64,000 bases of DNA from Symplocastrum torsivum CPER-KK1 (GTDB lineage Bacteria > Cyanobacteriota > Cyanobacteriia > Cyanobacteriales > Coleofasciculaceae): positions 1 to 64,000 of the forward strand of contig JAHHIF010000005.1 in assembly GCA_019358875.1 (NCBI GenBank), in the 5' to 3' direction. Of this stretch, positions 4,685 through 51,770 are shown one piece after another. The notes beneath the pieces were generated by a model. It had not been told where the DNA came from. It worked only from the letters and a program-made list of their open reading frames with translations, and ran no database searches. Each line of letters begins with the position of its first letter. Within the stretch, counting starts at the first letter, position 1. The translations under genes and the position numbers were made by a program.

Positions 4685-4870
4685 TAAGGACGATTAGAAA
4701 CAGCTAAAACACAATCCATACAGCGGACTTGCCTCAGCATTCGTTTGGGGCGAAATACACCAAGATTCGTTTAACCAAGGCTTGATTTCGTTTTTTTAGT
4801 ACCTGTCGGACTGTCTCATGAGAGATACTATCCACGTAGCGCCTAAATCTGCGCCGTGACACACTCATTA
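4685..4870 (-). pseudogene. Remnant of an IS630-family transposase
   Basis: On the minus strand one frame reads 'VDSISHETVRQVLKK', a hallmark of IS630-family transposases. A slip in the A run shifts the frame, after which 'NEIKPWLNESWCISPQTNAE' continues the alignment. A second shift near 4720 gives 'MDCVLAVSNRPYG', equivalent to the 'MEDVLDVYxRPYD' block. Parts of three frames are therefore needed, with both ends of the gene missing. No terminal inverted repeats were found. It is a dead fragment squeezed between the starts of the TolB-like gene and the gene at 4896. Confidence 0.75.
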
Positions 4871-4895
4871 ACTGTAAGACAAGGAACGTTTTCCG

Positions 4896-5177
4896 ATGCA
4901 AAGTCAGGATAGCTTCACCGAAGTGACATTTCACTATGTAAATGGTGAGTCGGAATCGTTTGAGATTCCCCTAACTCCAGAAACCTTCCAGCAACAACTG
5001 TCAGATTTACTCAATCAACCTTGGTTGACCATGCACCTATTTGATAAAACGGTTTTAATTTGTACGGCTCAGATTATGAAGATAGAAGTGAAGCCTCCCC
5101 TAACGGAAATCCAAGGGACAGGTGTCTTCCCTGATACTCTGCGGGTAACAGCGCTGACACATGGAGCGAAAGCTTAG
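4896..5177 (+). CDS. Conserved hypothetical protein of 93 residues
   Basis: A small soluble protein without signal peptide or membrane segment. The N-terminal 'FTEVTFHYVNGESESFEIP' and 'MHLFDKTVLICTAQIMKIEVKPP' suggest a small beta-rich fold, similar to short proteins I remember from other cyanobacteria, but no function is known to me. It starts with ATG at 4896 inside a region that also holds the IS630 remnant on the other strand, and ends 250 bases before the TnpB gene. Confidence 0.65.
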   Translation: MQSQDSFTEVTFHYVNGESESFEIPLTPETFQQQLSDLLNQPWLTMHLFDKTVLICTAQIMKIEVKPPLTEIQGTGVFPDTLRVTALTHGAKA

Positions 5178-5426
5178 CGATCGCATAATAAATCGAGTTA
5201 CCTCTGGCTGCTCTTGTCAACTCAACCAAAACTTAGCTAATGGGGGTTTGGGGGTGGATAAGCCCCGCACCCTAATTGGCACGGATATATCGAGGCAATG
5301 CCGAGTACTGCGCTTCAATTGGGCATCGGGATAAGCCCAGACACAAGGAGTAAATGTAGGTACGGAATCAGCCCATAAATACTTAGGGAACAACAATGCA
5401 CTCCCTAAGTATGATACGATAATCTC

Positions 5427-6665
5427 ATGCTGACATTAACTTACCGCTACCGCATTTATCCAAACGCCCAACAGGAAACAGTAATGCTCGAATGGCTGGA
5501 AACCTGTAGGCGCGTCTATAACTATGCGGTGCGAGAACGCTCATACTGGATGAATTCCAGGAAATGTGATGTTAATGCCTGCTCACTCCAATCCGAATAC
5601 ATCATCCCCGCCGATACGCCCTATCCTGACTATTACAAGCAGAAGAAAGCGTTAACTGAGGCAAAAAAATCTAGTCCACAAATGAAAGCCGTATACTCTC
5701 AGGTACTTCAGGATGTCATTGGTAGAGTTGACTCTGCCTTTGCCTTCATGAAACAGAGAGGATATGGCTTTCCTCGTTTTAAGAAGTTTGGGCAATTCAA
5801 ATCATTCCTGTTCCCCCAGATGAGCAATGAGGCAATTCAAGGGAATCAGATTAAACTGCCCAAGATTGGACAGGTGACAATCAACTTGCATCGCCCGATT
5901 CCTGAAGGATTCAAACTGAAAACAGCTCGAATCGTTCGCAAGGCATCGGGTTGGTACGTCATGCTTGCCTTGCAGCTTGATGTACAGATTCCCGATATTC
6001 CACCACACGGACGAGCGATCGGGATTGATGTCGGACTGGAGTACTTTCTATCTACATCTGACGGCGAACAAGTTTCACGCCCTCGTTTTTTCAATAAGTT
6101 GCACAGGAAGCTGGAATTGCTCCAACGCAGACTTAAGAATAAGTTGAAGGGGTCTAACAACCGTCGTAAGTTAAATCAGAAGATAGGTAGAGTGCATGAA
6201 CAGATTGCTAAATGTAGGCGCGACTTTCACTTGAAACTGGCGCATAAACTGTGTGACCAAGCTGGCATGATTTTTGTGGAAGATTTGGACTTCCGCATTA
6301 TGGCTAAAGGTATGCTCGGAAAACATACCTTAGATGCCGCGCTAGGACAGTTTGTGAATCAGGTTTTACCTTGGGTCTGCTGGAAACGGGATGTTTACTA
6401 CGGCAAGGTTAATGCCAACGGGACATCTCAAGAATGCCCTGATTGTGGAGCATTGGTCAGAAAAGACTTGAGCGTAAGAACTCACTCCTGTCCTGAATGC
6501 GGTTCAGTTAAACCAAGAGACGTTGCCAGTTCTCAAGTGATAGCGAAGCGTGGTCTTGTTGCCGTTGGACAGACGGTAAATGAAATTGCCTGTGGAGGGG
6601 AAGGGGCGGGGGTAGCAATGCCTAGTTACCACCCTTTGAAGCAGGAACTTCTTGGAGTAATCTAA
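5427..6665 (+). CDS. tnpB: TnpB, RNA-guided endonuclease of the IS200/IS605 family
   Basis: TnpB proteins use an RNA made from the transposon right end to cut DNA next to a short motif; they are relatives and probable ancestors of Cas12. The 412-residue protein has an N-terminal helix-turn-helix region ('YRYRIYPNAQQETVMLEWLE'), a central wedge/REC part, and a split RuvC domain: Asp201 in 'GIDVG', Glu285 in 'FVEDLD' and Asp365 in 'PRDV'. The zinc ribbon has Cys337-x2-Cys340 and Cys355-x2-Cys358. All three catalytic acids are kept, so it may be active. The ATG start follows the left-end hairpin by 15 bases. The 3' end adjoins the right-end hairpin, as expected if the guide RNA overlaps the gene end. 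Confidence 0.92.
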   Translation: MLTLTYRYRIYPNAQQETVMLEWLETCRRVYNYAVRERSYWMNSRKCDVNACSLQSEYIIPADTPYPDYYKQKKALTEAKKSSPQMKAVYSQVLQDVIGRVDSAFAFMKQRGYGFPRFKKFGQFKSFLFPQMSNEAIQGNQIKLPKIGQVTINLHRPIPEGFKLKTARIVRKASGWYVMLALQLDVQIPDIPPHGRAIGIDVGLEYFLSTSDGEQVSRPRFFNKLHRKLELLQRRLKNKLKGSNNRRKLNQKIGRVHEQIAKCRRDFHLKLAHKLCDQAGMIFVEDLDFRIMAKGMLGKHTLDAALGQFVNQVLPWVCWKRDVYYGKVNANGTSQECPDCGALVRKDLSVRTHSCPECGSVKPRDVASSQVIAKRGLVAVGQTVNEIACGGEGAGVAMPSYHPLKQELLGVI

Positions 6666-6670
6666 GGAAG

Positions 6671-6705
6671 CCCGCGCTGTACTGACGCGAGCAGTCAGCG
6701 TCGGG
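6671..6705 (+). ncRNA. Right-end hairpin, probable 3' part of the TnpB guide RNA
   Basis: CCCG-CGCTG-ACTG (6671-6684) pairs with CAGT-CAGCG-CGGG (6692-6705), with one bulged base on each side. It follows the tnpB stop by six bases. In this family the right end is transcribed as the scaffold of the omega RNA and the flanking DNA becomes the guide. Transcription here is inferred, not seen. Confidence 0.6.
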
Positions 6706-6708
6706 AGG

Positions 6709-7686
6709 ATGTCACAATCTAAAACCATGCCTACTGTTAGTTTGATTCGTGCTGATTCTTATGAGCGCCAACGACTGAGAGCCTATGTGGAAACCTTGCT
6801 AGAGCCATTAGGAGGGATGAGGGCATTTGTGAAAGAAGGCGATCGTGTCCTACTTAAGCCGAATCTCCTCACATCCGGTCGTCTTGGTAAAGAATGCATC
6901 ACACGCCCTGAACTCGTTTACTGTGTTGCTCAGTTAGTACAAGAAGCTGGTGGTAAGCCTTTTTTTGGAGATAGTCCCGCTTTTGGTACTGCTAAGGGTG
7001 TTGCCGAGGCAAATGGCTATTTGCCAATCATGGAAGAACTCAACTTACCCGTTGTCGAATTCCATGGTCAACGTTATGAAACGGCGAGTCTTACCTTTAA
7101 TCATCTCCGCTTGTGTAAAGAAGCGATGGACGCTGATGTCGTCATCAACCTCCCAAAGATGAAATCTCACATGCAGTTGACGTTGACGATGGGTGTCAAG
7201 AACTTATTCGGTTGTGTACCAGGGAAAATGAAGGCATGGTGGCACATGGAGGCGGGGAAAGATGAGAACCGCTTTGGGGAGATGTTAGTGGAGACTGCAC
7301 GGGCAATTAACCCAGACTTGACGATTCTTGATGGAATTATCGGTCACGAAGGTAATGGTCCTAGCGGTGGCGAACCCCGACAGCTAAATGTTTTGGGGGC
7401 GTCCTCCGATGTCTTTGCCCTTGACCGTTCCCTGGTAGAAATTCTGAATGTTGACCCAACTCTTGTGCCCACGATTACCGCACAAGAGCGATTAGGGCTT
7501 TCTTCTGGATTCGCTGATATCCAGTATCCACTTCAGCGACCAGGGGAACTGCAAGTGCTGGATTGGAAACTACCCGATGCTTTAATGCCGATTGATTTTG
7601 GGATGCCCCGCGTCATCAAGTCCACCTTCAAGCATCTATACATCCGGTTTATCAAAGAACCGCTGAAAACTTATGCCCAACAGTAG
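6709..7686 (+). CDS. DUF362 domain protein with a transposon-derived start
   Basis: A 325-residue DUF362 protein: 'GDRVLLKPNLL' near the N-terminus, 'VVINLPKMKSHMQLTLTMGVKNLFGCVPG' in the middle and a C-terminal 'LDRSLVEIL'. Many DUF362 proteins carry 4Fe-4S ferredoxin clusters; no CxxCxxC motif is visible here, so this belongs to the cluster-free type. Its biochemical role is unknown. The first ATG (6709) together with GGAGG just before it is part of the transposon right end; the sequence homologous to the family appears to start at Met7 (6727). It is followed by a strong terminator. Confidence 0.85.
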   Translation: MSQSKTMPTVSLIRADSYERQRLRAYVETLLEPLGGMRAFVKEGDRVLLKPNLLTSGRLGKECITRPELVYCVAQLVQEAGGKPFFGDSPAFGTAKGVAEANGYLPIMEELNLPVVEFHGQRYETASLTFNHLRLCKEAMDADVVINLPKMKSHMQLTLTMGVKNLFGCVPGKMKAWWHMEAGKDENRFGEMLVETARAINPDLTILDGIIGHEGNGPSGGEPRQLNVLGASSDVFALDRSLVEILNVDPTLVPTITAQERLGLSSGFADIQYPLQRPGELQVLDWKLPDALMPIDFGMPRVIKSTFKHLYIRFIKEPLKTYAQQ

Positions 7687-32628: not shown

Positions 32629-35157
32629 ATGTCAATTGTTCCTATTGGTTCAGAATTCCGCGTTAACACTCACACTAGCAGTGAGCAACGCACATTCACC
32701 GAAACACCGCAGTCCGTAGCAATGGATGCTGATGGGGACTTTGTCGTTACCTGGAGTAGCAATGGTCAGGATGGTTCCGGTTGGGGAGTCTACGCCCAGC
32801 GCTATAACGCGGCAGGACAGGCTCTAGGTAACGAATTCCGAGTTAATACTATTACTAGCAATTCTCAACAGTTTTCGACGGTAGCGATGGATGCCGATGG
32901 AGACTTTGTTGTTACCTGGAGTAGCAATGGTCAGGATGGCTCCGGTTGGGGAGTCTACGCCCAGCGCTATAACGCTGTGGGAGAGGCAATTGGTGACCAA
33001 TTCCGAGTCAACAGCTATACCAGTGGTACTCAACAGTTTTCGACGGTAGCGATGGATGACGATGGGGACTTTGTCGTTACCTGGAGTAGTAATAGTCAGG
33101 ATGGCTCTGGTTGGGGCGTATATGCCCAGCGCTATAACGCGGCAGGACAGGCTCTAGGTAACGAATTCCAAGTCAACAGCTATACCAGTGGTTCTCAAAT
33201 CTACTCTAAGGTGGCGATGGATGCAGACGGAGACTTTGTCGTTATCTGGAATAGTGCTGGACAGGATGGCTCTAGCTATGGAGTCTATGCTCAACGCTAC
33301 AGTGCGGCTGGAGAGGTTTTAGGTGGCGAGTTTAAGGTCAATACCTACACCAGCAGCACTCAACGATTTTCCAGCGTTGCGATGGATGCCGATGGGGATT
33401 TTGTGGTGACTTGGACTAGCAGTGGGCAGGATGGTTCCGGTTGGGGAGTCTACGCTCAACGCTACAGTGCAGCCGGAGAGGCTTTAGGTCAGGAGTTCCG
33501 AGTCCATACCTTTACCAGTGGTTCTCAACTCTACTCCACAGTGGCGATGGATGCCGATGGAGATTTTGTAATTACCTGGAGTAGTAATGCTCAAGATGGC
33601 TCTGGCTATGGTGTATATGCTCAGCGTTACAATGCAGCTGGAGAGGCTTTAGGTGATGAGTTTCAGGTTAATACCTATACCAACAATTCTCAACGGTTCT
33701 CCAATGTTGCGATGGACGCTGACGGGGATTTCATTGTTAATTGGACGAGTAATGGTCAGGATGGCTCAAGCTATGGAGTGTACGCTCAACTTTACCGAGA
33801 GTTAGAAGCTCCGAGTAGCACTGGCATTAGTAATGTCATTGTGCAGGAAGATGCTCCTAATACGGTGATTGACTTGTTTGCTGCCTTTACCGATGATGAC
33901 GACACAGATACGAACCTGACCTACACGATCGCCAACAATAGTAATCCCAGTTTATTCGCAGCAACAACCGTTGATGCAGTTACAGGAGAGTTGATACTAG
34001 ACTATGCAACCAACGCCAACGGTACGGGCAACTTGACTATTCGAGCCACAGACTCGGATGGTTTATTTGTCGAAACAACCTTTGGTGTTACGGTTACTGC
34101 CGTCAACGACACTCCCACTGTTGTTAACTCAATTCCAAATCAAAGCGCCGCAGAAGATATCCCTTTCTCTTTTCTACTGCCTGCCAACACCTTCAGTGAT
34201 GTTGATGCCGGAAGTAGCCTTGCTTACACAGCTACCTTGAGTAACGGGAATGCCTTACCGAGTTGGTTGACTTTTAATGCTGCTACTCGCACTTTTAGTG
34301 GTACCCCTCTCAACGGGATGGTCGGTTCCTTAGACATCAGAGTCACAGCAACAGACGAGGTAGGGGCAAATGTTAGCAATACCTTTAATTTAGCGATCGC
34401 CAACACCAATTATGCTCCTATTACTAATGATGAAGTCGCAACTCTGACTGAAGGCAACTCAATCACGCTTGATTTGCTAGCAAATGCTACTGATGCCGAT
34501 GGTGATGTACTCACAGTTGGAAGTTTCATCAATCCTACCTACGGCACCCTAGTACAGAATGAGGAGGGAACATTTACTTACACAGCCCCCCTCAACTTCA
34601 GTGGCGCAGACAGCTTCACCTACACGGTAAGTGATGGTCATGGTGGGACGAGCGAAATGGCTACAGTCAGTCTTACAGTTGACCCACTGAACCTTGAGGG
34701 AACCGCCGCCTCCGAGACGTTAATCGGTACAAGCAGTGATAACATCATCAATGCTTATGGCGGGAGAGATGTCATTGAGGGTAAAGCAGGCGATGACATG
34801 TTAAATGGTGGTAGAGGTAATGACGTATTAACGGGGGGCAGTGGTGCTGACCTCTTAGTCGGTGGTGCTGGTAGTGATACATTTGTCTACACTGATTTTA
34901 ATGACAAGGGTGATACCATCACTGATTTTGGTGTTGGCAGAGATGTCCTTGACCTAAGAACTCTCTTCGATAACCTTGGCTATGCGGGTGCTAATCCAAT
35001 TGCGGCTGGCTATATGCAGTTCGTGCAGAGTGGTAGTAATACTCAAGTCCAAATTGACCCAGATGGAGTGGCTGGCTCCCAAAATTTCAGTTCTCTGGTA
35101 ACTTTAAACAATGTCACTACCACGGCTTTGATGATCGGCAGTAACGTCATTGTCTAA
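32629..35157 (+). CDS. Large RTX/cadherin-like secreted repeat protein
   Basis: An 842-residue acidic protein. Residues about 27-385 are seven tandem repeats of 55 residues ('VAMDADGDFVVTWSSNGQDG...GVYAQRYNAAGEALG-EF-VN'), Asp-rich and probably calcium binding. About 385-490 and 490-590 are cadherin-like or putative Ig domains ('VTVTAVNDTPTVVNSIPNQSA'), 590-685 a tandem-95-type domain ('DSFTYTVSDGHGG'), and about 690-760 holds RTX nonapeptides ('GGRGNDVLTGGSGADLL', 'GGAGSDTFVY'). The C-terminus carries 'ITDFGVGRDVLDL'. There is no N-terminal signal peptide: this build fits type I secretion by a C-terminal signal. Likely a surface or matrix protein in adhesion; no enzyme domain is seen. Confidence 0.9.
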   Translation: MSIVPIGSEFRVNTHTSSEQRTFTETPQSVAMDADGDFVVTWSSNGQDGSGWGVYAQRYNAAGQALGNEFRVNTITSNSQQFSTVAMDADGDFVVTWSSNGQDGSGWGVYAQRYNAVGEAIGDQFRVNSYTSGTQQFSTVAMDDDGDFVVTWSSNSQDGSGWGVYAQRYNAAGQALGNEFQVNSYTSGSQIYSKVAMDADGDFVVIWNSAGQDGSSYGVYAQRYSAAGEVLGGEFKVNTYTSSTQRFSSVAMDADGDFVVTWTSSGQDGSGWGVYAQRYSAAGEALGQEFRVHTFTSGSQLYSTVAMDADGDFVITWSSNAQDGSGYGVYAQRYNAAGEALGDEFQVNTYTNNSQRFSNVAMDADGDFIVNWTSNGQDGSSYGVYAQLYRELEAPSSTGISNVIVQEDAPNTVIDLFAAFTDDDDTDTNLTYTIANNSNPSLFAATTVDAVTGELILDYATNANGTGNLTIRATDSDGLFVETTFGVTVTAVNDTPTVVNSIPNQSAAEDIPFSFLLPANTFSDVDAGSSLAYTATLSNGNALPSWLTFNAATRTFSGTPLNGMVGSLDIRVTATDEVGANVSNTFNLAIANTNYAPITNDEVATLTEGNSITLDLLANATDADGDVLTVGSFINPTYGTLVQNEEGTFTYTAPLNFSGADSFTYTVSDGHGGTSEMATVSLTVDPLNLEGTAASETLIGTSSDNIINAYGGRDVIEGKAGDDMLNGGRGNDVLTGGSGADLLVGGAGSDTFVYTDFNDKGDTITDFGVGRDVLDLRTLFDNLGYAGANPIAAGYMQFVQSGSNTQVQIDPDGVAGSQNFSSLVTLNNVTTTALMIGSNVIV

Positions 35158-51101: not shown

Positions 51102-51341
51102 GCGTAGTGGCAAATGCGCGAATGGGTAGGTGTTTTTTTGAATAAGCTACGTTTGAGGCGGTATGGCTAATTAGATCAAGGGTTACAAGCCATTATAGCT
51201 AATCAACGATTCGCGCATTAGTCACAGCAAGGGTTTGAGCGATTTTGCCTGTTGACAGATAGTGATTTTTTTGAAATGATTAAGTCATTCGCGCAACTGC
51301 ACATTGAAAACTACATACAGCAAGCTTTTCAGCATCCCGCT
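51102..51341 (+). promoter_or_regulatory. CRISPR leader
   Basis: The 240 bases upstream of the first perfect repeat. It is AT-rich near the array and contains ATGCGCGAAT (51114-51123), its exact reverse complement ATTCGCGCAT (51209-51218), and a third copy ATTCGCGCA (51287-51295). The leader is placed on this side because the repeat at the far end is degenerate. Promoter elements cannot be pinpointed. Confidence 0.65.
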
Positions 51342-51667
51342 CTTTCAGCGCTATGTAATCCCTATCAGGGATTGAAACTTAATCGGCAAGTTTTATAAAA
51401 AGCAGTCTGATCTGCTTTCAGCGCTATGTAATCCCTATCAGGGATTGAAACGAGTCTAAGCGTCGTCGGGGTTTGATACTTAAGCGGCTTTCAGCGCTAT
51501 GTAATCCCTATCAGGGATTGAAACAAGGCGATCGCCCAGTCTGGTCTTAAGCCCTTTCCTTTCAGCGCTATGTAATCCCTATCAGGGATTGAAACTTTAA
51601 TATCTGCTTTGAATTCTTTGTAGTTCTCCTCTTTCAGCGCTATGTAATCCCTTTCAGGGATTGATAC
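51342..51667 (+). CRISPR. CRISPR array: five repeats, four spacers, no cas genes
   Basis: Repeats of 37 bases start at 51342, 51415, 51488, 51559 and 51631. Each begins CTTTCAGCGCTATG, contains the small palindrome AATCCCTATCAGGGATT and ends ATTGAAAC, a common 5'-handle in type I and III systems. The first four are identical; the fifth has two changes (CCCTTTCAGGG and ATTGATAC). Spacers: 51379-51414 (36), 51452-51487 (36), 51525-51558 (34), 51596-51630 (35). No cas gene is in the window, so the array depends on Cas proteins encoded elsewhere or is inactive. Confidence 0.97.
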
Positions 51668-51770
51668 CAAATCCGGTTCTATAGTTCTAGTCGTAGAGAC
51701 GTTCCGGCGGAACGTCTCTACAAAGTTTTATGGGTTGCCGAAAAAGGGGTAGTTGACCCGGATTCGGTAT
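51664..51770. mobile_element. MITE-like element fused to the CRISPR trailer
   Basis: Terminal inverted repeats ATACCAAATCCGG (51664-51676) and CCGGATTCGGTAT (51758-51770) match at 12 of 13 positions and enclose 107 bases. Inside is a perfect 13-bp hairpin, GTAGAGACGTTCC with GGAACGTCTCTAC (51693-51721). No coding capacity. Its left end overlaps the last four bases of the fifth CRISPR repeat. Confidence 0.7.

Follow-up and report, generated by a model that had tools for sequence, protein, structure and literature searches.

A tnpB insertion sequence in the cyanobacterium Symplocastrum torsivum CPER-KK1 runs directly into a DUF362 gene, and its last bases hold a GGAGG and an ATG that reads in frame into that gene. 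Does the mobile element provide its neighbour with a ribosome site and a start codon, as a first-pass annotation of this DNA had proposed, or is the frame across the junction open by chance? We consider it probable, at roughly three chances in four, that a tnpB-only element inserted 11 nt before the DUF362 start, that the in-frame ATG at its end is fortuitous, and that the native ATG at 6727 is the likely start. The features of the locus are listed in Table 1, with positions counted in the window, i.e. the whole stretch of 64,000 nucleotides that was analysed. Two repetitive stretches were seen elsewhere in the window: five copies of a repeat of about 37 nt (CTTTCAGCGCTATGTAATCCCTATCAGGGATTGAAAC) at 51340-51673, spaced 71-73 nt, which resemble a short CRISPR array whose last repeat has diverged, and six tandem copies of a 165-nt repeat (67-85% alike) at 32716-33840, which belong to a gene for a repetitive protein.

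Table 1. Features of the tnpB element and its flanks, in window positions.
Feature	Positions	Strand	Basis
93-aa gene without known family; the DUF362 gene's ancestral neighbour upstream, from which the element now parts it	4896..5177	+	
TAM (target motif) TTAG, just left of the element	5233..5236	+	relatives' left ends, split genes, join compared with L009
Whole element: tnpB-only IS200/IS605-type (IS1341-like) insertion sequence	5237..6715	+	borders from family copies and split genes; TnpB inside
tnpB, 412 aa, D/E/D RuvC motifs and zinc ribbon	5427..6665	+	Pfam, phmmer
Right-end hairpin, where the 3' stem-loop of the omegaRNA scaffold is expected	6671..6705	+	fold, covariation; role from PMC10278001
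Right terminus GGGAGGATGTCAC, with GGAGG and in-frame ATG 6709-6711 at zero spacing	6703..6715	+	
Possible N-terminal extension MSQSKT	6709..6726	+	reading frame only; two codons and one base from the element
AATCTAAAACC, native 5' leader; the TnpB guide is expected to begin with these bases	6716..6726	+	ungapped alignment to the L009 leader
DUF362 (Npun_F2552 family) gene, counted from its family start ATG, which is Met7 in the long frame	6727..7686	+	orthologues, NF052623, PF04015

The borders of the element can be read from family copies with a common interior and different flanks, and from genes that such copies have split (a slash marks the border in what follows). Similarity among independent copies is lost at TGTCAC/ or TGTCAA/, and because they diverge directly at this point the right end is placed on base 6715, exactly at GTCAC. 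The element does not stop short of GGAGGATG, and the first-pass annotation was right that the transposon end reaches in frame into DUF362: GGGAGGATGTCAC occupies 6703-6715, and the frame from ATG 6709 is open. At the other end, relatives start after TTAG or TTAA (TTAR), as does the element of the window at TTAG 5233-5236, and a C always follows the TTAR. Two split genes fix the border as TTAR/C. In genome G025 (L238:1-1913) a DUF29 gene is split at TTA-A/TC: it reads ...LDLDHL up to TTA A/, resumes with /TC GAG GAG past the element and gives LDLDHLIEEIESLG when joined. In genome G234 (L540:1-1728, on contig 14; also L541) cpcD is split after ATG-TTA-G: ATG TTA G/ resumes as /GT CAA TCA, and the join restores MLGQS. 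Both joins were made by eye, and because of them the C after TTAR is taken as element sequence. When the window flanks are joined on the TTAG/C model, their last 30 nt align ungapped with the leader of the closest orthologue (L009) and match it at 19 of 30 positions, against 14 of 30 for a TTAGC model. A TAM of TTAGC, with the element beginning at 5238, was rejected in view of the two splits and the ungapped L009 match; an in-frame TAG before the native leader, once taken as proof of the start, fell together with that border model. The joins of window/L009, L238 and L540 all take the form TTAR/flank, i.e. the element inserted 3' of TTAR with no target duplication. Its left edge lies about 140 bp further out than had been annotated: the element begins at 5237, not at 5379, and 5379-5419 is an internal hairpin beside the tnpB ORF.

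A single long ORF fills 5237-6715 and there is no tnpA inside the element; a PF01797 search found two Y1 transposase genes elsewhere in the host genome, on other contigs. The TnpB protein carries the Pfam domains OrfB_IS605, HTH_OrfB_IS605 and Cas12f1-like_TNB, and phmmer matches it to the structures of ISDra2 TnpB (8bf8, 8exa, 8h1j), its nearest natural solved relative. The RuvC motifs IGIDVG, VEDL and PRDVASS are intact in alignment to TnpB-type nuclease.

In TnpB elements the right end is the 3' end of the omegaRNA scaffold, with the flank as guide and a conserved 3' stem-loop adjoining it (PMC10278001). The right-end hairpin of the window covaries in RNAalifold, where 9 of 12 pairs have changed on both sides among 19 right ends; the left-end hairpin is visible in sequence only, and Rfam gave no match in 4700-7000. 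Judged by the family, hairpin and GGGAGGATGTCAC would together serve the needs of transposition and of the omegaRNA, as cleavage site and as 3' end of the guide-RNA scaffold, and the guide would be read from AATCTAAAACCATG onward. Because the right end is the boundary between scaffold and guide, its terminus is expected to be conserved without any role in translation. The 13-mer GGGAGGATGTCAC occurs in seven copies in the host genome and exactly in 40 of 59 related genomes, with a nearly empty reversed control, although several of the exact matches sit in contexts other than right ends. The terminus varies, too. Among 108 right ends adjoining tnpB genes, a few of them doubtfully assigned, 39 carry AGGATGTCA[AC] and 31 the full GGAGGATGTCA, while the start-like codon at this position is ATG in 54 and GTG in 25. 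The nearest relatives (L068, L110, L111, L112 and L115, with TnpB 75-88% identical) have GGGAGTGTCAC or GGGAGTTGTCAC, and L114 (TnpB 70% identical) has GGGAAAAGTCAC. The assertion that the conserved end always carries GGAGGATG is therefore mistaken: about 31-39 of the 108 right ends do, and the six nearest relatives do not. Unusual arrangements of the family were observed at L182:2001-3749, a tnpB element inside another tnpB gene, and at L233 (G010, contig 219), where two right ends in opposite orientation stand about 25 nt apart and form long palindromes.

Which ATG, then, starts the DUF362 protein? The DUF362 frame begins 43 nt past tnpB: ATG 6709-6711 opens a frame of 325 codons, the seventh of which is ATG 6727, followed by the DUF362 domain. 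The proposal that the family sequence starts at Met7 agrees with the element-free orthologues, 22 of 29 of which have an ATG at the Met7 position (in the other seven the start lies one to four codons further upstream), and with NCBIfam NF052623, which matches residues 9-320 at 596.8 bits (cut-off 500), residue 9 being profile position 2. PF04015 matches the protein at 198 bits, and no solved structure is related to it by sequence. Alignment of the N-termini shows MSQSKT before the common start in none of the 29. The orthologue L017 (genome G018) contains one in-frame TGA and is either a pseudogene or affected by a sequencing error.

Six residues were said to have been added by the transposon. 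The frame does give MSQSKT, but the element supplies ATG TCA C only, and AATCTAAAACC (6716-6726) is native. Nor does the locus bear out that a native ribosome site was replaced: an SD-like tetramer at -18 to -4 is present in one of the 22 orthologues with a Met7 start and absent from 21, and the last 11 native nucleotides with their CC remain. To judge from these leaders, the native DUF362 gene probably had no Shine-Dalgarno site to replace. Two pyrimidines precede the start in all 22 (background 26%), and SD-less starts, in which a dipyrimidine precedes the start codon, are common in cyanobacteria (PMC3160421). The two bases before the start are CC at ATG 6727 and GG at ATG 6709; the dipyrimidine directly before the ATG that characterizes an SD-less cyanobacterial start is thus found at 6727.

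The remaining part of the proposal, a working ribosome site in GGAGGATG, is contradicted by the zero spacing between GGAGG and ATG and by the adjoining hairpin. In Escherichia coli the SD effect is strongest at a spacing of about 7 nt (PMC5303271). GGAGG 6704-6708 abuts ATG 6709 at 0 nt and lies 18 nt from ATG 6727; ATG 6709 misses the SD-start spacing of roughly 5-9 nt, although the rule derives from E. coli and the host is a cyanobacterium. In the window-strand fold, moreover, GGG 6703-6705 ends the 3' arm and closes the right-end hairpin, so that it overlaps the supposed Shine-Dalgarno site. That GGAGGATG acts as ribosome site and start codon, with a transposon-dependent DUF362 protein starting MSQSKTMPT, is accordingly quite unlikely in our estimate: the frame is open and in phase and the codon is an ATG, but the spacing is nil, the GGG is paired, and the insertion has left the native ATG 6727 and its CC dipyrimidine untouched. 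SD-less cyanobacterial initiation at ATG 6709, or use of both starts, could occur. The two in-frame ATGs stand 18 nt apart with no stop between them, and a mixture of long and short DUF362 proteins might result, or ribosomes from ATG 6709 might read through and aid expression; as far as the sequence can tell, however, ATG 6709 lacks both a usable SD spacing and a preceding dipyrimidine, and we regard this as very improbable. DUF362 translation probably still starts at the native ATG 6727, as the leader sequence suggests, and we infer that ATG 6709 is a fortuitous upstream start with at most minor use.

Sequence comparison shows that the tnpB-only element inserted after TTAG in a short spacer between the 93-aa gene and the DUF362 gene, which places the DUF362 start codon 11 nt past the insertion point. 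A homologue of the 93-aa gene lies 23-280 nt upstream of DUF362 at 16 of 29 orthologue loci, and the element has therefore split a conserved gene pair. The 93-aa gene itself (4896-5177) has no Pfam or NCBIfam match; it is a possible functional partner of the DUF362 gene. The insertion may have cut off the native promoter, leaving DUF362 expression reliant on the element transcript. It might even have silenced the gene, if a promoter common to the 93-aa gene was parted from it and TnpB uses up the transcript as guide RNA. The conserved neighbourhood would fit such a loss, as would the lack of a sigma-70-like promoter match in a consensus scan of 5100-6800, and the guide would start only 11 nt before the start codon. 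On the other hand, DUF362 retains an intact, well-conserved frame, the scan covers one promoter type only, and TnpB reportedly does not process the 3' side of its RNA (PMC10278001). Silencing is therefore an unlikely outcome in our view.

The element's terminal ATG is by chance in frame with DUF362, since no stop interrupts the flank in this phase. The first-pass annotation had suggested that such fusions could be a recurrent outcome of the family. Our survey took right ends with GGAGGATGTCA[AC] in many cyanobacterial genomes and counted, in a non-redundant set of the flanks beyond them, frames of at least 100 codons. The first 177 flanks gave 15:5:9 for the ATG frame and the two others (p=0.03 against one third), and Pfam-confirmed genes in them, shorter frames included, numbered 14, 5 and 6. 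Another 111 flanks, all of them new, gave 5:8:5, and the nominal ATG-frame excess was dropped. Pooled over 288 flanks the counts are 20:13:14, ATG frame first (p=0.12 against one third). The want of a reproducible frame excess is a further argument against a start at MSQSKT. A phase rule derived from the sequence bears on these numbers: inside a gene, a sense TTAR falls either in the ATG phase, as TTA-Rnn, or in the phase nTT-ARn, whereas the third phase holds TAG or TAA. Therefore about half of the sense insertions inside genes leave the remainder in the ATG frame, the expected share of the ATG phase lies between one third and one half, and the pooled 43% needs no selection. The rule, with two phases of which one is the ATG phase, is simple and checkable. 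Family-wide, the ATG is in frame with a downstream gene about as often as the other phases are, and more frequently so inside genes, because two of three phases are permitted there and one is that of the ATG. Recurrence stands, since in-frame right ends are found at 20 of 288 flanks, but it proceeds at about the same rate as for the other frames. The locus is an ordinary insertion, and the frequency of such fusions in the family is roughly what geometry predicts.

Occasionally a right end is the only start codon left. In the split cpcD of G234 the element's end gives ATG-TCA-C, and the frame is full length, with MSRQSLVGSSS in place of MLGQSLVGSSS; the NCBI CpcD model matches it from its first position to 76 of 77. 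The other CpcD matches in this genome, found with a query that approximated the protein closely but differed from it at a few residues, are all CpcD-like domains within longer frames, and the split gene appears to be the genome's only stand-alone CpcD. One copy lies near the end of contig 14 and another near the start of contig 15; they share >2 kb of identical sequence and probably represent one place. If CpcD is still made in G234, the element's ATG must be used. Likewise, the C-terminal three quarters of the DUF29 gene in G025 lie in the right-end ATG frame, and a nearly complete Uma2-type fragment is found near a contig end in G281 (L370:989-1522, minus strand); in L238 and L370 no start other than the right-end ATG precedes the conserved domain. 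As read from the frames, cpcD and DUF29 show that a right end can supply the only start codon, and these three loci (L540 CpcD, L238 DUF29, L370 Uma2) are also the points elsewhere that favour a start at MSQSKT in the window. One might generalize that ATGTCA[AC] right ends are portable start codons, which by insertion at an in-frame TTA or before a gene cause the frame to be translated from the element's ATG; we hold this possible but rather doubtful. If it were true, insertions expected to kill a gene could leave a nearly complete protein, e.g. by the change from MLGQS to MSRQS in cpcD of G234. That gene offers a natural test of whether a split gene can regain its start codon from the insertion sequence that divided it. 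Downstream of such right ends, gene prediction may assign genes N-termini that derive from the element.

The element shares with tnpB-only IS200/IS605 (IS1341-type) insertion sequences of cyanobacteria and with the ISDra2-like TnpB/omegaRNA system the OrfB_IS605 and TNB domains, the D/E/D motifs, duplication-free insertion 3' of a short TAM, and a covarying right-end hairpin adjoining the flank; its own features are the TAM TTAR and the terminus GTCAC, the terminal ATG being one of several variants and missing in the six nearest relatives. The DUF362 protein shares with the Npun_F2552/DUF362 family a full match to NF052623 and PF04015, and differs in six possible extra N-terminal residues that are absent from the orthologues. 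In our literature search, no paper described IS605 right ends that serve as start codons. Insertion sequences that alter the expression of neighbours by outward or hybrid promoters or by fusion starts likewise have an element end directly upstream of a gene, and the end described here could, as in those cases, change the 5' leader. In contrast to promoter-supplying insertion sequences, its possible contribution would be a start codon and not a promoter.
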